In this document: piece after piece, positions 1,771 to 10,049 of the stretch
Layout: the number at the start of each line of letters is the position of its first letter
How positions within the stretch are numbered: the first letter of the stretch is position 1
From: a virus
Length of the DNA: 42,309 nucleotides
Virus record (IMG/VR): IMGVR_UViG_3300025616_000011
Span: 1-42,309 of that record
Direction: 5' to 3' (one strand)
Notes under the pieces: model-generated
What the model was told of the DNA's origin: nothing
The model's input: only the letters and a program-made list of their open reading frames with translations
Databases searched by the model: none
Made by a program: the position numbers and the translations under genes

Positions 1771-2038
1771 GCCTATTTCCAGCTTCCATCAACTCACGCT
1801 CTTTGTCGGTGTACTTTGGCTCGTAAACGCGCGCTGAAATTACCGCGTTCTTTCGCGCCTTCTGCGCGGCATCCATCTTTGGCGAGCTGCGTTTTTGGCG
1901 CAATCCCAGCGCGATGATCTGCCTGTTCGCTACACCTGAATCGCAAAACAAAAAACCAGCTATTTCGGCAGTTGTGAATTTTCCGAACCACTTTTTGATA
2001 TTCGCGTTTTCTTCATCTGACCAGATGCGTTTTTTCAT
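1730..2038 (-). CDS. SANT/HTH-like small DNA-binding protein
   Basis: A 102-residue basic protein. Residues 4-45 (WSDEENANIKKWFGKFT, then TAEIAGFL) resemble Myb/SANT or GcrA-like helix-turn-helix modules that begin W-(T/S)-x-EE. This predicts DNA binding. The start ATG overlaps the RT stop (ATGA) and is preceded by GGAGG at good spacing inside the RT gene, so it is translationally coupled to the reverse transcriptase. Its link to the DGR may be only positional. The target is unknown. Confidence 0.55.
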   Translation of the reverse strand: MKKRIWSDEENANIKKWFGKFTTAEIAGFLFCDSGVANRQIIALGLRQKRSSPKMDAAQKARKNAVISARVYEPKYTDKERELMEAGNRLAQVSWMGVCRVS

Positions 2039-3138
2039 GATGATTTCCTCCGATAAATTTTCGTTAAACTTCCGTTAATCGTATGCCCGCGTTTGCGCAG
2101 TACGTTAGATAGCAAAATTCTTTGGTGATAGCTGTGAGTTGCCTGACGCATAAGCCCAAAGTAGCTATTCGCTGTTTTGTATAGTTCTGCGCTATCGATA
2201 GTGCTGACGCGGCGCATCGCCTCATTGATGGTGCGTTTGCGCATCGTGCGGTGCCATGGCCGGATAACCTGTCCGACAAAATCAACACCGCGAGAAATTG
2301 GCTGCAGGATTGTTTTTGATGGGTTGATGCGAGCGTGCAGCCTATCGCTCAAGAACTCTTCGATCTGCGCTTTGGCTGCGTTGAGCCATTGCGGTGATTC
2401 ATGCAGAATCAGAAAATCGTCCACATAGCGGATATAGTGGCGCGCCTGCAACTTGTGCTTACAGAACTGGTCGAGTTCATCCAGGTAAATGTTGGCGAAG
2501 AACTGGCTGCTGAGATTGCCAATTGGCAACCCGAGGTGCGCTGGGTGGTTTGTTAGCCGTTTGTGCGGCGGCACTAAGTCGAGCATGCGAGGCGACCCGC
2601 GCAGTTCGTAGTTTTGGCGCGGATCGTGAAACAGGATCGTGTCGGCCAGCTGCATCCACCACGGTTCAGTAACGCGCTTGGCAATCAACTCTCGCAGGAT
2701 GTTCTTATCGATACTGACGAAAAAATTAGCAAGGTCGAGTTTCAGGTAATACGCATGTTTGCCCCAGTTCTGAGTGATGCTGCGCACATTCGATTCAAGC
2801 CGTTTTGCGCCGTACAGCGTGCCGCGACCTGGTATGCAAGCGCAGCTATCAGCAATGAATCTGGCGTGGAAGATCGGCGCGAGGCGGTTGTAGAGAAGGT
2901 GATGCACGATGCGGTCGCGGAAGTCCGCTGCCCATACTTCGCGCGGCTTTGGTTTAGTGATGGCAAAGCAGATGCTTTTCCCTGGCTTATATGAGCCGTC
3001 TGATAGTTCATCGTGCAGACCAATCAGGTTGTGCTCAAGATTATGCTCAAAGCGTAGTGCGCTATCTGTATTGCGTTTGTGGCGTCGGCAGTCTTTGTAT
3101 GCCTCGGCCAGTAATTCGATTGAATATCCAGTATCCAT
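2035..3138 (-). CDS. Diversity-generating retroelement reverse transcriptase
   Basis: This 367-residue protein is the error-prone reverse transcriptase that copies the template RNA into mutated cDNA for the variable repeats. Polymerase motifs are visible: KLDLANFF at about 133-140 with the first catalytic Asp, GLPIGNLSSQ at 203-212, and YVDD at 238-241. The IGN-xSQ form of motif 4 marks the DGR family; group II intron and retron enzymes differ here. Length fits the family. I chose the ATG at 3138 because the RT fold starts there (MDTGYSIELLAEAY) and it lies 20 bases after the template repeat. The frame stays open upstream to 3435 through the template repeat, which I regard as non-coding for RT. 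The last gene of the DGR cassette, it overlaps the next gene by four bases. Confidence 0.93.
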   Translation of the reverse strand: MDTGYSIELLAEAYKDCRRHKRNTDSALRFEHNLEHNLIGLHDELSDGSYKPGKSICFAITKPKPREVWAADFRDRIVHHLLYNRLAPIFHARFIADSCACIPGRGTLYGAKRLESNVRSITQNWGKHAYYLKLDLANFFVSIDKNILRELIAKRVTEPWWMQLADTILFHDPRQNYELRGSPRMLDLVPPHKRLTNHPAHLGLPIGNLSSQFFANIYLDELDQFCKHKLQARHYIRYVDDFLILHESPQWLNAAKAQIEEFLSDRLHARINPSKTILQPISRGVDFVGQVIRPWHRTMRKRTINEAMRRVSTIDSAELYKTANSYFGLMRQATHSYHQRILLSNVLRKRGHTINGSLTKIYRRKSS

Positions 3139-3150
3139 AGAAGCTCTCGG

Positions 3151-3235
3151 TTGAATTTGCGGAAGGGGCGAACACGGAACTCGTTGTTCCGATTGTTGTT
3201 GTTGACGTTGCCGTTCTCGAAGTCCACTGCCCACG
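3151..3235 (-). repeat. DGR template repeat (TR)
   Basis: A 78-base core (3158-3235) is shared with VR1 and VR2 and extends to about 3151 on the 3' side. On the minus strand it contains eight AAC/AAT codons in the phase used by the variable proteins, so it reads as an Asn-rich stretch V-NNNN-R-NN-E. AAY codons are the standard DGR design: randomising their adenines gives 15 amino acids and no stops. It lies between avd and the RT gene, as in Bordetella phage BPP-1. It serves as RNA template, not as a protein gene. Confidence 0.93.
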
Positions 3236-3407
3236 ATATTCGAGCTATTCACGTTTTCAAATCGAGGCATTGCTTCAATAAGAAAACTGCGCGGAATCAT
3301 TGCGGCATACGCCGACGATATTCCTGATGCGCATGTCGGTAGGGCGAACCCTAGCGGCTCGACCAGATTCATAGCGCGTTGTCCAAATTGCCTTGGCAAA
3401 GTCGGCG

Positions 3408-3755
3408 TCAAGCGCATTCCGATTTCCTCTGCCATCCGGTAGCCTGCTTCCCAATGCTTGCCGTGATGGCTATAGCTTTCCCATACTGACCATGAGATAT
3501 AAGGCGCAAGTCAACCGCCAGGCGCAGAGACAGATTAACCGCCTCAACTTCCTGCCGCATTTTGCTCAGGATTGGCGACTTGTCCTGCGATGTATTTGCC
3601 TCGTAGGTACGCATTACCAGCCCCATGCAGCGTCTTCTCAATTCAGCGCCGAAGTCCGCTTTATAGTTTCTGGGCATGTTCGCTACGAGTTGCATCACCA
3701 GCTGTGCCAGTTGGTAAGTCGCCTTGTAAATTGCTGTGTCAGTATGGAGTGCCAT
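3408..3755 (-). CDS. avd: Avd-like DGR accessory protein (four-helix bundle)
   Basis: A 115-residue basic, almost entirely helical protein. Segments YKATYQLAQLVMQLVANM, ADFGAELRRRCMGLVMRTYE, ILSKMRQEVEAVNLSLRLAV and QYGKAIAITASIGKQATGW fit the four-helix bundle of Avd proteins, the S23-like family. Avd forms a pentamer that binds the reverse transcriptase and template RNA and is needed for mutagenic cDNA synthesis. Its place between variable gene and template repeat matches BPP-1. No clear ribosome site precedes the ATG; a 15-base hairpin lies eight bases upstream, so translation may be coupled or structure-controlled. Confidence 0.85.
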   Translation of the reverse strand: MALHTDTAIYKATYQLAQLVMQLVANMPRNYKADFGAELRRRCMGLVMRTYEANTSQDKSPILSKMRQEVEAVNLSLRLAVDLRLISHGQYGKAIAITASIGKQATGWQRKSECA

Positions 3756-3763
3756 ATTTTTAG

Positions 3764-3778
3764 CGGGCTACGCCCGCG
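3764..3778 (-). other. DGR-type hairpin/cruciform downstream of VR1
   Basis: The palindrome GCGGGC-GTA-GCCCGC (minus-strand sense) lies six bases past the VP1 stop. It has six perfect GC pairs and no U-run, so it is not an intrinsic terminator. In BPP-1 a GC-rich hairpin just downstream of the variable repeat stimulates retrohoming, and this matches it in kind and position. No similar hairpin follows VR2. Confidence 0.65.
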
Positions 3779-3784
3779 AAATTG

Positions 3785-4201
3785 TTAAATTGATGAAGCG
3801 ATGAAGCTGCGGAAGGGGCGAACACGGAACTCGCCGCCCCGATAGTAGCTGCCGACGTCGCCGTACTCGAAGTCCACTGCCCACGACCAGCCGTGATGAT
3901 GCGAGCGCGTCCAGTAAACGCTGTCCATGCCGCCGTCACACTTGAATTGCTCCCGCGCGTTGACATAGGCCAGCATGTAATCTTCCTGCTCGCCGGTATT
4001 CCAATCGTCATAGCCGTTGATTTCTTTGAACTGTGCGGATTCCGCTGCGGCGAAATTCTTCCCAGTAAGGTCGTAGTCAATACCGGCAGGCGTGACGACG
4101 TAGCGTTCCTCACCGTCTATGATGCGCATGCCACAATAAACGCCGCCTTGTTCTGCCCAAAGTTCGCCGATTTTTGGTGCTGTGATTTTCTTTTCGTTCA
4201 T
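3785..4201 (-). CDS. DGR variable protein 1 (DUF1566-like C-type lectin fold)
   Basis: A 138-residue protein whose last third ends in the variable repeat. The C-terminus reads VYWTRS, then SWAVDFEYG and EFRVRPFRSF, the YW-S/T plus W-x-(V/D)-F-x-NG plus VRP-R pattern of DUF1566 (Lcl C-terminal) domains, which adopt the C-type-lectin fold used by DGR targets. Variable residues are Y, D, GSYY and GG, each at an Asn position of the template. I start at MNEKKITAPK (4201), preceded by AAGGAG at good spacing. It has no signal peptide or membrane segment. It follows VP2 by 32 bases. The ligand is unknown. The longer frame to 4330 is an artefact reading through VR2. Confidence 0.88.
   Translation of the reverse strand: MNEKKITAPKIGELWAEQGGVYCGMRIIDGEERYVVTPAGIDYDLTGKNFAAAESAQFKEINGYDDWNTGEQEDYMLAYVNAREQFKCDGGMDSVYWTRSHHHGWSWAVDFEYGDVGSYYRGGEFRVRPFRSFIASSI
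3801..3885 (-). repeat. Variable repeat 1 (VR1)
   Basis: Aligned with the template at a fixed offset of 650 bases, the 78-base core has 11 differences, all at template adenines. Extending to 3801 adds three more, also at adenines. The flanks GAGTTCCGTGTTCGCC and GTGGGCAGTGGACTTC are unchanged. VR1 covers the last part of VP1. Confidence 0.93.
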
Positions 4202-4233
4202 GGTGATTCTCCTTTTAAAAATTGATGAATGGG

Positions 4234-4797
4234 TTAATAGGTAAATCTGCGGAAGGGGCGAACACGGAACTCGGTGAGACGAAGGTTGTCGTAGACGTTG
4301 CCGTCCTCGAAGTCCACTGCCCACGCACAATCATTCCCGCGTGTGGTGCTAGTCCAGTAATAGTCTTTCGGGTTGAACAGGTGCGGAACATTTGCCAGCG
4401 CAACCATCAGCTCACGGCGTGCAGGCAGATAAAAGTCACAATGCCCGCTACGCTCATAATTCGCAGCTAGGTCTGCTGCTGGGGATTTCCCGCGCAGCGT
4501 ATTGGTGCTCGACAGGCCGTCCCATTGCGACAGATCGCCTTTATGATCACGGCCAAATTCCACCATGCCGATGTCCATTTCCTCGGCGACGATCAGTCCG
4601 TACAGAACTTTATCGTCGCCAAGAATGTCGCCGACATAGATGCCACCCTCTGTTGTCAGGTATTCGCCAATGCGTGGGCGGCGGTTGCCGGTTGCACTGG
4701 ATTGCTGGCGTAGGCTGTCGAGCAGGTTGCGTGCAACAATTTCAGCTGGTAGCGCGATTTTTGCACCGAAGCCAAGATCAAATTCAATTGAGTTCAT
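4234..4797 (-). CDS. DGR variable protein 2 (DUF1566-like C-type lectin fold)
   Basis: A 187-residue protein with a fuller DUF1566 domain than VP1. Residues about 60-85 hold GGIYVGDILGDDKVLYGLIV, then DWNT-like core motifs, FYLPARRELMVAL, YYWTSTTRGN and AWAVDFEDG followed by EFRVRPFRRF at the C-terminus. Variable positions carry D, N, YDNL and LT. The start ATG at 4797 has AAGGA seven to eight bases upstream and follows the preceding gene stop by 23 bases; a further in-frame ATG at 4836 overlaps that gene and is less likely. No export signal is visible, so a cytoplasmic or virion-associated role are both open. It is transcribed first in the cassette. Confidence 0.88.
   Translation of the reverse strand: MNSIEFDLGFGAKIALPAEIVARNLLDSLRQQSSATGNRRPRIGEYLTTEGGIYVGDILGDDKVLYGLIVAEEMDIGMVEFGRDHKGDLSQWDGLSSTNTLRGKSPAADLAANYERSGHCDFYLPARRELMVALANVPHLFNPKDYYWTSTTRGNDCAWAVDFEDGNVYDNLRLTEFRVRPFRRFTY
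4248..4325 (-). repeat. Variable repeat 2 (VR2)
   Basis: Aligned with the template at an offset of 1090 bases, the core shows nine differences: eight at template adenines and one at a G (CGG to CGT, silent for Arg). It differs from VR1 at most variable codons, so the two targets were diversified separately. Confidence 0.92.
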
Positions 4798-4820
4798 GAT
4801 ATTTCCTTGAGTAATTGGGC

Positions 4821-5627
4821 TTATTTTTGATTCCACACGGCGCCGCGCACCGCATCGCCGACTGGAACCATGGCGAACACTTCCGCTTTGCCGACGAACT
4901 TAGCCGCGCGCATGGCCTGCTGACGTGCTTTCTCCAGCGACTTGACCACAAACGGCTTGTGCTTCGGGATGCGGATCAGGAATTGCTCGACGGTGACTTG
5001 CCGCTCTTGTTTTTCTGCATACTGCATAGACTCAAACGCTATACGGGTTATTTCGCCATCCTTTGATGCGACGACTTCTCTTAGGCGCGATGCTTCGTCG
5101 TCAGCTTTTGAAAGGGCGCGTGAGATACGTAGCTTTTCATCTAGCAGTTTCTCGGTATCGTCACGCCATGTTCGATTCTCCGCCTGCGCGCCTGCAAGCT
5201 CATCGTGCAGCCGCGCATTCTCTTTCGCACCATCCTCGACCAGCTTGCGCAGCTCCTCCAATTCACCGGTTGATGCAGGGAAAATCTTATGGATTACCTG
5301 GTCAATCGTTACAGCTGGTTTTTCAGTTGTTAAATTCGGCTTAACATCTGGCGCAAATGGTGAAGACTCCTTATCGGTTGCCGCATCCGACTTGATGCGT
5401 GCTTTGCCCAGATCAGTAATGCTGTAGGCCTGCTTTCTTGTAATCCCGTCCATGCGGCTGGTCAGCAAACCATCCTGTTTAGCCTGATAGCAGTTGTCGC
5501 CAATTTGCTTTTCGGTAAAATCCGACAGAGAATCGATCATGTCCGCCACGGTCAGATCAGGTTTACGCGCGAGCAGGGCGAGGATCTGAATGCGGATGCC
5601 CTTCATTGGTTTTGCGGTGTCTTTCAT
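4821..5627 (-). CDS. Winged-helix plus coiled-coil early protein
   Basis: A 268-residue protein. Residues 8-75 (IRIQILALLARKPDLTVADMIDSL through QAYSITDLGKARI) read like a winged helix-turn-helix with a C-terminal wing. A linker follows, then a long heptad-rich coiled coil (about 120-205). The C-terminal 60 residues are basic (IPKHKPFVVKSLEKARQQAM). This suggests a dimeric DNA-binding protein; the partner is unknown. It overlaps the acyl-carrier-like gene by four bases and immediately precedes the DGR cassette in the same operon. Confidence 0.6.
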   Translation of the reverse strand: MKDTAKPMKGIRIQILALLARKPDLTVADMIDSLSDFTEKQIGDNCYQAKQDGLLTSRMDGITRKQAYSITDLGKARIKSDAATDKESSPFAPDVKPNLTTEKPAVTIDQVIHKIFPASTGELEELRKLVEDGAKENARLHDELAGAQAENRTWRDDTEKLLDEKLRISRALSKADDEASRLREVVASKDGEITRIAFESMQYAEKQERQVTVEQFLIRIPKHKPFVVKSLEKARQQAMRAAKFVGKAEVFAMVPVGDAVRGAVWNQK

Positions 5628-7905: not shown

Positions 7906-8903
7906 TATCTTTGCTCCCATGAATTGATTGTTTCGATTACTTCATCTGAAAGGCTGAATTTCGGTGTTAGAAAGTTGATCAAGTCTTTCGCCGATTTGTC
8001 GCCTTGCTGGATTTGCGATTTCGTACTGAATGTTTTTACAACTCCGTCCGCATCAACCTTATCTGTTGCGTATTTCTTGGCCAGATCATCCATGCTCAAT
8101 TCAGGAAGGCGCGAAACCTCTTCGGCTGCATCCTCATCACTGACCGGCACCCACTCACCAGCGATTGCATCGTTTACGTTCAATCCCTGACTACCGGTTG
8201 CAGCTGCGTTGTCCAGCTCAACGGCACGGGAAAGTTCCGTGCTCATCGGCATGTACTTCAGCACCTGGAGAAGAACAACTTTGCGCGCATACATTTCCAT
8301 GTTCTCGAATGCGTAGTGCTTATCGCCGACCTTGTTGTATTTCTGAAGGTGGCGCTTAATTCGTGCGATAGACCAGACTTCAGTGATTGCGGTATCAGCC
8401 CCTTTCACCCGGCCGCACGCATAAACATGGGTTGGCTCACCCTCTCCGTGCAGATCGCCGGGGATATGGACGCACTTCGGGTCATCGCCAAGCTGGTACT
8501 CGAACCGATCACCTGCGAACACTGCACCAGTCCATACGGTTGCCTGACCGGAGCGAGACACCAGATCAACCAGGCCTTTCCAGCCAGGGATAAATTGGCA
8601 TTCCCAAGTTTTCTGCCAAACATTGCCAACCTTCGTGTTCTTTGCGTAAGGTAGCAAGTAAGCGCGACCCAACGTGTCCGGCTCAAGACCAAGTTGAGCG
8701 GCCTGGATAACTGCGGCAAACACGCTGCGCGGATCGCATTCAGCAAGCTTTGGCGTGCGGCGAAAGGCTGTCAGCGCAATGCGGCTCATGCGGTCGCCAT
8801 TCAGGTGAGCGGGGAGGGCACGCTGTATCTCAGGCAAAAAAGCCTTCAGCATTGATGGGAAGTCTTTCGGCTGACGATCTTGTGATGTAACTGCTGTACT
8901 CAT
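7905..8903 (-). CDS. recT: RecT-family single-strand annealing protein
   Basis: A 332-residue annealase that coats single-stranded DNA and pairs it with complementary DNA, working with the adjacent exonuclease. Family motifs include SVFAAVIQAAQLGLEPDTLG, AYLLPYAKN, ECQFIPGWKGLVDLVSRSG and MYARKVVLLQVLKYMP. The acidic C-terminal tail (about 250-332) is typical. The start overlaps the preceding small gene by four bases. The exonuclease-annealase pair parallels lambda Exo-Beta and is expressed from the same leftward operon as the DGR. Confidence 0.92.
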   Translation of the reverse strand: MSTAVTSQDRQPKDFPSMLKAFLPEIQRALPAHLNGDRMSRIALTAFRRTPKLAECDPRSVFAAVIQAAQLGLEPDTLGRAYLLPYAKNTKVGNVWQKTWECQFIPGWKGLVDLVSRSGQATVWTGAVFAGDRFEYQLGDDPKCVHIPGDLHGEGEPTHVYACGRVKGADTAITEVWSIARIKRHLQKYNKVGDKHYAFENMEMYARKVVLLQVLKYMPMSTELSRAVELDNAAATGSQGLNVNDAIAGEWVPVSDEDAAEEVSRLPELSMDDLAKKYATDKVDADGVVKTFSTKSQIQQGDKSAKDLINFLTPKFSLSDEVIETINSWEQR

Positions 8904-9076
8904 GATTTTCTCCCGTGTTTTTTAAATTCAATTACACCGATGTGGCAGGTGTTTTCCTCGATATCTGTTTTAGTGCTACAGGGCTGCCCGACCATCCACG
9001 ACTGCCAGCCTTGCCATTCCTGCTCTGTCACGGCTGGTGCGCTGTAAAACAACGTCAGCGCTATCAGCATCCTCAT
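8900..9076 (-). CDS. Small exported or membrane-associated protein
   Basis: A 58-residue ORF whose N-terminus (MRMLIALTLFYSAPAVT) resembles a signal peptide with a possible cleavage after APA. The mature part is Trp-rich (EWQGWQSWM) with two cysteines (QPC and NTC) and a basic tail. It overlaps the upstream gene and recT by four bases each (ATGA), strong evidence of a translated gene in this tightly coupled operon. Function unknown. Confidence 0.6.
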   Translation of the reverse strand: MRMLIALTLFYSAPAVTEQEWQGWQSWMVGQPCSTKTDIEENTCHIGVIEFKKHGRKS

Positions 9077-9563: not shown

Positions 9564-10049
9564 TCTGCTATCTCCTGTTTTATTGGGTGATCCGTTACGC
9601 GGATCGGTTCGGCTGGTTTCTTCAGTGCTTCCAGCGGCCTGCATGTAAGGGTTCATGCTTCCGGCGGGACTTTCACCAGCTTGCTTGTCACGCTCTACCG
9701 TGCTTGCCCGGAGATGCCTCCGAAATAGTTGTTGGTGGCCGGTGCTGAGTAACTCCGGCATTCCCCCGCCCATACGTGTCAGGGGATAGGCTACGTTCCA
9801 CATCAGGTCAGCTCCTGAATTCACCAACAAGGCTGATCTGTCACGAGTCTATTGCTCCAGCGCGTCCGCTATTGCTCACCACTGCCCACAGATCAGGCTT
9901 GTTGATCCTCGTCTCTCCGAAGCGTCACTCCATTTTTAACCATCAGTCTCGTGCGCAGAGTTTTGCACCTCATTACGGGTATGGTTCCCGCCCCATCGTT
10001 ATCCGCCAGTCATAGGGGTATGCACTTATCGTTACAGCGGATGCAGAAT
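9564..10049 (-). ncRNA. Candidate large structured non-coding RNA
   Basis: A 486-base gap in an operon whose genes otherwise overlap by a few bases. It holds a run of hairpins (plus-strand coordinates): 9589-9605 GATCCG/CGGATC, 9611-9635 GGCTGG/CCAGC, 9641-9658 GCATG/CATGC, 9689-9702 CACG/CGTG, 9709-9722 CGGAG/CTCCG, 9738-9759 GCCGG/CCGGC, and a 17-pair stem with one mismatch at 9825-9841/9888-9904. Single-stranded links contain GGTGAAAGTCCCGCCGG-type purine-rich text seen in large ribozyme-like RNAs. Orientation is inferred from the operon. Possible classes are an OMEGA/HEARO-like RNA, an intron relic or a large ornate phage RNA. I cannot assign a family. Confidence 0.5.

Follow-up and report, generated by a model that had tools for sequence, protein, structure and literature searches.

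The window analysed here is the whole of a 42,309-base virus record, and the reading of one side of it as an early left operon is sound because its minus strand carries genes for an S24-type repressor, RecT and a YqaJ exonuclease. Within this operon, a 98-aa gene (10346-10050) and a 60-aa gene (9563-9381) are separated by a gene-free interval of 486 nt (9564-10049, minus strand), whose neighbours are small genes of unknown function, RecT and the YqaJ exonuclease. The gap is non-coding. Coding-like codon use is absent from every frame, an open frame running into the gap has a coding score of about 0, and three of the four small neighbours score +0.12 to +0.32 (the fourth, 8900-9076, also scores about 0). 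A PHROGs search of the gap returned no protein family match, and neither this nor codon use points to a protein gene in decay. A search of the gap revealed no terminator-like site, and Aragorn called no tRNA in the window. At the spot expected for a tL1-like terminator, upstream of the 98-aa gene, is a strong hairpin resembling an intrinsic terminator, with a T-run (10779-10762, minus strand).

The core of the structured RNA described below spans 9906-9727 of the minus strand, on which all of its parts lie, and comprises a long stem and, 3′ of it, a junction. In the long stem, strand X (TCAACAAGCCTGATCTGT, 9888-9905) is the complement of strand Y (ACAGATCAGCCTTGTTGG, 9824-9841), with 15 of 16 pairs between AACAAGCCTGATCTGT (9903-9888) and ACAGATCAGCCTTGTT (9841-9826), extendable to about 18. 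The loop domain between them (9842-9887) contains two GAGCAATAG repeats (9877-9869 and 9857-9849; 0.42 copies expected in the window), and the equivalent loop in relatives often contains a T-arm hairpin. Immediately 5′ of X is a conserved hairpin, GTGACGCTTCGGAGAGACGAGGAT (9905-9928, stem CUUCG/CGAGG); TGACRCCTCGGAAGAGACGAGGAT likewise sits just 5′ of X in about nine loci (L046, L101, L105, L109, L121, L198 and others), and the window's TGACGCTTCGGAGAGACGAGGAT just before X resembles it, the individual matches being weak (E about 1 each). The junction module (9727-9832), which is the part matched by the covariance model R1, is ordered as closing stem GUUGGUG/CACCAAC, hairpin A, variable insert and hairpin C. 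Hairpin A (9803-9818) is UCAGG-AGCUGA-CCUGA, with a stem wholly unlike the usual GCGC/GCGC but with pairing kept, and its loop GCUGA is complementary to the loop UCAGC of hairpin C (GCCGG-AGUUACUCAGCA-CCGGC, 9738-9759). The insert, or cassette, is placed by the alignment at 9762-9802 and is swapped among relatives. The 3′ part of Y also pairs with strand Z (CACCAACAAC, 9728-9737), the junction-closing partner of Y and hence a competitor of X. A T-loop-like hairpin, GCTGGTGAAAGTCCCGC (9664-9680), lies 3′ of the module. The gap as a whole is the probable extent of the RNA domain; blastn coverage by relatives stops at about 9723, no conservation was found beyond 9928 and 9727, and the 5′ (10049-9929) and 3′ (9726-9564) limits are not established.

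Much of this was anticipated in an original prediction made from the sequence alone, which claimed a 486-base gap without a credible gene, at least seven hairpins, a 17-pair stem with two copies of GAGCAATAG in its loop, and a density of stems far above that of the neighbours. The first claim held by coordinates, codon use and the lack of a PHROGs match; the hairpins are seen in the minimum free energy (MFE) fold of the gap; the long stem is as given above, and the two repeats are the only ones in the window. The observation is thereby confirmed. As for the density of stems, the fold energy of the gap is the most negative among 16 consecutive 486-nt segments of the minus strand; taken alone it is only mildly unusual (z -2.0, with 3 of 100 shuffles equally good). 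Folding energy by itself is too weak as evidence for a structured RNA.

A strict blastn search of the gap against phages and plasmids gave no match. A permissive search (E up to 10) gave matches of E about 0.5, but these recurrently fell on the same 30 nt of the gap and lie where unrelated phages of Klebsiella, Aeromonas and Pantoea have no annotation. The plan common to them is GGUGAAU, a hairpin with loop AGGCUGAU, a variable stretch, GCCGG-AGAUCAGCA-CCGGC and CACC. A pattern scan for the 3′ hairpin found it in no fewer than 120 viral contigs, with a GGTGAA start upstream at 108 of 125 sites; a scan for the 5′ half, in which both stems and all of hairpin C were left free, also gave at least 120 matches. 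More than 200 relatives were found across viral contigs, phages and E. coli. At most 192 sequenced phage records and 934 of 5,426 complete E. coli genomes (about 17%) carry a 34-nt signature, and in the E. coli set roughly two thirds of the sites belong to plasmid records; these counts were taken at E up to 10, and the weakest matches may be due to chance. The RNA is present in P1, P7, lytic Klebsiella phages and lambdoid operons, and often adjoins tRNAs and T-arm hairpins. Other routes to relatives were unproductive: the flanking proteins yielded none for three small genes, none of 16 viral RecT relatives has similarity to the gap, RecT has no relatives in the genome contigs either, and an exact 20-mer from the insert had no match. 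Rfam 15 has no family for the R1-type RNA, and its signature letters were absent from the literature searched, which did not cover subscription journals.

Several hypothetical proteins are annotated over the RNA. In P1 (L246 19473-20042) these are plp and upl, on the opposite strand, and several phage orfs in the databases that start with MPE(I/L)STGH begin with translated hairpin C. Such proteins are likely to be misannotations. In Pantoea phage PA-1, the Rfam int-alpA RNA (L024 2539-2604) directly follows the module.

When 50 diverse relatives are aligned, standard pairs make up 97% of cells, and 10 pairs have changed on both sides. Double-changed cells number 64 as opposed to 17 in shuffles, none of 500 shuffles was as good, and the signal was far lower in controls with slid partners. 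Covariation covers the closing stem, hairpin A and hairpin C. Because the first scan had preset hairpin C, and both had preset part of the loops, covariation of hairpin C was assessed in the second, which fixed only the 5′ half; its stems there include GUCGG/CCGAC, GUAGG/CCUAC, GUUGG/CCAAC, GCCAG/CUGGC and GCAGG/CCUGC. The covariance model R1, built from the 50 relatives with the window left out, matches the window at 9832-9727 with 52.2 bits (E 3.5e-12), at full length and with every pair intact; the second-best site in the window scores 11.8 bits, and R1 has no match in RecT-neighbour loci without the element. The window meets the whole R1 plan of GGUGAAU, hairpin A, insert, hairpin C and CACC, with the covarying stems. 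It is very probable, on this evidence, that a conserved structured RNA is present in the gap. The claim of a folded minus-strand RNA thus held, with strong compensatory change among homologues and no degraded protein gene.

The window loops AGCUGA and AGUUACUCAGCA conform to the complementarity of GCUGA in loop A with UCAGC in loop C. A compensated change to ACUGA/UCAGU is found in P7 and L208, and two loci (L036 and L142) have A-C loop mismatches. Since the loop pairing is mostly invariant and most loop letters were fixed by the scans, support for kissing is thin.

The long stem belongs to the family as well. A segment complementary to the bases 5′ of the junction sits about 60-200 nt upstream, and X-Y complementarity is significant at p<=0.05 in 58 of 143 loci versus about seven expected, with sequences that differ between loci. 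In the window it beats 60 of 60 shuffles. X was selected as the best complement of Y, which inflates the pair counts, and the evidence is the excess over shuffles. The junction-side bases of Y pair with both X and Z, so that the window has a long X-Y stem whose 5′ arm shares its partner with Z. Folded by itself, the window's X-to-Z segment loses roughly half of the X-Y end to pairing with Z; in the MFE fold of the entire gap, X-Y prevails completely over Y-Z.

Modules occur in tandem, two or three in a row, in P1, P7, L153 and L193. P1 and P7 also have a second kind of module, whose loop is AGGCA and which constitutes the Rfam STnc100 core; the R1 and STnc100 models match there at the same sites. 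T-arm hairpins (GGTTCRANYCC) near modules number 60 on the RNA strand versus one on the other strand; 36 of the 60 are outside any predicted tRNA and 24 are within tRNAs. Modules adjoin tRNAs in P1, P7 and HC6, and most loci have no Aragorn tRNA nearby. The inserts of L115 and L214 resemble a tRNA body without the anticodon arm. The HC6 unit consists of a consensus promoter, the RNA, tRNA-Ile and a terminator, oriented opposite to the flanking genes. Other contexts are early operons in which a repressor-like protein is encoded upstream (24 loci, the window among them) and stretches that run from Q/NinG-like genes to lysis or terminase genes; the identities of neighbour clusters, including Q and NinG, were assigned by eye from sequences. 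The early position in a PL-like operon is shared by the window with E. coli and Edwardsiella phages. HC6 (L148 2621-2779) and P1 (L246 18873-18977) have weak matches of tmRNA type upstream of their modules (E 0.12 to 0.55), which may be chance, or possibly a tmRNA-like domain.

The insert is a swappable cassette in a conserved frame, because identical flanks carry unrelated inserts in several pairs of loci. In five pairs both flanks are at least 90% identical and the inserts are unrelated; in two of these, L070/L194 and L090/L121, the flanks are 100% identical on both sides. A further 38 pairs share one flank only. Similar inserts recur as families with their own paired changes. One such family (L045, L048, L061, L083, L104, L143) has the core GGCAAGACAA...GGCCCCCGTTG and covarying hairpins, and further insert families recur, each of which might be given RNA family status.

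The original prediction listed four kinds of RNA that might account for the gap: a phage ornate RNA, an OMEGA-like RNA without its nuclease, an intron relic and a processive antitermination element. An OMEGA-like RNA is not supported, there being no HEARO match at the Rfam threshold and no IscB or TnpB among the neighbours. An intron relic is not supported either, with no RF00028 or RF00029 match for group I or II at the Rfam threshold and only 15.3 bits for D1D4-4 versus a cutoff of 49; the weak group II match originates in the T-loop-like hairpin 3′ of the module, and this lead was rejected when the exact 18-mer GCTGGTGAAAGTCCCGCC matched only one coding-region coincidence. The antitermination element is not excluded for the early-operon copies, although their structure is unlike HK022 put. 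The phage ornate RNA fits best because the RNA is phage-borne, lies near tRNAs, and has loop-loop complementarity and a variable insert. The Rfam covariance search and the homologue alignment proposed along with these candidates gave, respectively, no membership of group I or II introns, HEARO, GOLLD or ROOL, and strong compensatory changes.

GOLLD and ROOL are of phage origin, with tRNA proximity, kissing loops and a variable linker able to hold tRNAs (PMC12286853). The present family resembles them in being borne by phages and prophages near tRNAs, in loop complementarity, in its variable linker and in its unknown function. Unlike GOLLD, many examples of which exceed 800 nt, its conserved core is a junction of about 110 nt that occurs in tandem, and there is no evidence in the R1 family of multimers such as the homo-oligomeric nanocage that marks GOLLD and ROOL. 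Membership of GOLLD or ROOL was rejected, as their Rfam models have no match over the gap at gathering or E<=10 and none over the relatives.

The outer plan (GGUGAAU, hairpin, insert, hairpin, CACC) is shared with the prophage sRNAs STnc100 (RF02076) and PasD, which are grouped together by a common structure; PasD has RIL-seq targets (PMC13192938) and STnc100_4 has been detected by Northern blot in EHEC (PMC5331693). STnc100 differs in having AGGCA as the loop of hairpin C and no GCUGA/UCAGC. Its model scores 43.0 bits on the sister module of P7, 33.4 on that of P1 and 48.7 on L022 (gathering threshold 47 bits). The window does not meet this threshold, has no match to the model even at E<=10, and was rejected as an STnc100 member. 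A weak sister module was also detected in the Rac prophage of K-12 (L245 7261-7393, minus strand, 23 bits), between the sRNA KilS (PMC8175672) and kilR; KilS might be the 5′ domain of the same RNA.

The likeness to tRNA lies in a 3′ hairpin directly after the closing stem, two hairpin loops able to pair, an insert at the position of the anticodon arm, and tRNA fragments inside or beside the module. Unlike tRNA, the window RNA has no T-loop in hairpin C, no CCA end and no Aragorn call. HK022 put, about 70 nt with two stem-loops, mediates RNA-only antitermination near PL (PMC9378689), and the window RNA is likewise an element near the early left promoter of a lambdoid phage. The published structure of put is unlike it (PMC9378689), and the window RNA was not assigned to the put-type elements. 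R1 does find a 21-bit match in HK022 itself (L247 13580-13695), between a DnaB-like gene and Q and not at putL.

The favoured interpretation, somewhat more likely than not, is that the RNA of the gap belongs to a so far undescribed family of structured RNAs in phages, ornate in kind and acting in trans, with STnc100 as a sister and without belonging to GOLLD or ROOL. The function is inferred: there are no expression data for this phage, and no trans activity, target or multimer has been shown. Loops A and C would kiss, within or between molecules, to give a rigid frame comparable to that made by the D and T loops in tRNA. In the window phage the RNA would be made within the early operon, and in some lytic phages a separate transcript would carry only it and tRNA; it may then persist as a stable molecule that acts in trans. 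Because X and Z share a pairing partner in Y, the X-Y hairpin might form first and later be partly displaced, or X and Z might swap partners between molecules. The insert is predicted to be the part that faces a changing target; suspicion of a changing partner, such as a host defence, is an inference that rests mainly on the cassette exchange. The likeliest role in this scheme would be counter-defence or takeover via tRNA mimicry or decoy. No phage RNA decoy or inhibitor of this description was found in the literature searched, which left out most preprints and subscription journals.

That the inserts are counter-defence cassettes is an inference less likely than not to hold; if correct, it would open an RNA layer of the phage-host contest. 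A bolder reading, clearly more apt to be wrong than right, is that a tandem, tRNA-like kissing-loop frame carries exchangeable RNA cassettes that neutralise changing host defences. If true, this would be the equivalent, at the RNA level, of exchangeable genes for anti-defence proteins, and would have been overlooked in P1 and in many prophages of E. coli. A strongly covarying RNA is present in the well-studied P1, yet has no Rfam family, and STnc100, the tRNA region of P1 and the Rac kilR leader are joined into one superfamily, the function of which is testable in a laboratory phage.

The strongest alternative, though itself unlikely, is a cis-acting leader or processive antitermination element, in which the RNA would bind RNA polymerase while nascent, or alternate between X-Y and Y-Z pairing, and so allow transcription to proceed into recT and exo. 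A cis role is possible, and is not excluded, because the window RNA sits inside a protein operon. In its favour are the early PL-like operon position in the window and in E. coli and Edwardsiella phages, the placement of other copies between Q/NinG-like genes (named by eye) and lysis or terminase genes, the competition of X and Z for Y, a hallmark of switches, and the precedent of put near PL in HK022. Against it are the dissimilar structure of put, the HC6 RNA that shares a unit with a tRNA only, the tandem copies and swapped inserts, which would be unexpected for a polymerase-binding element, and the absence of any terminator-like site found in the gap. A base-pairing regulatory sRNA like STnc100 and PasD, in which the insert or loops would serve as the seed for mRNAs of the host or the phage, perhaps with the help of Hfq, is somewhat less likely still. 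It is supported by the P1/P7 sister module being the STnc100 core, by the Northern blot of STnc100_4 (PMC5331693), by the common structure of STnc100 and PasD and the RIL-seq targets of the latter (PMC13192938), and by the proximity of KilS to the Rac sister module (PMC8175672); however, the inserts are structured, in families with conserved stems, and are not open seeds, and no 3′ terminator with a U-tract follows the window module. Still less credible is a mere processing or tRNA-maturation signal, whereby tRNA-like modules punctuate transcripts for RNase P, RNase E or RNase III and do nothing more: T-arm hairpins and tRNAs do share the module strand, and modules lie beside tRNAs in P1, P7 and HC6, but conserved A/C loop complementarity and cassette exchange are left unexplained, and most loci have no Aragorn tRNA nearby. 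The absence of any functional RNA, with the hairpins a chance cluster or a decayed gene, agrees with the only mildly unusual folding energy but is all but excluded by the independent R1 match, the phage-wide conservation, the lack of coding signal and the covariation, which refutes it unless the alignment is wrong.

Elsewhere in the window, a diversity-generating retroelement occupies 2035-4836 (minus strand), with a reverse transcriptase (3435-2035), an Rfam RT-15 RNA (3417-3233, 120 bits) and a template-like repeat near 3234-3157. The motif WAVDFE..FRVRPFR recurs at two variable-protein ends, near 3810-3890 and near 4240-4305.
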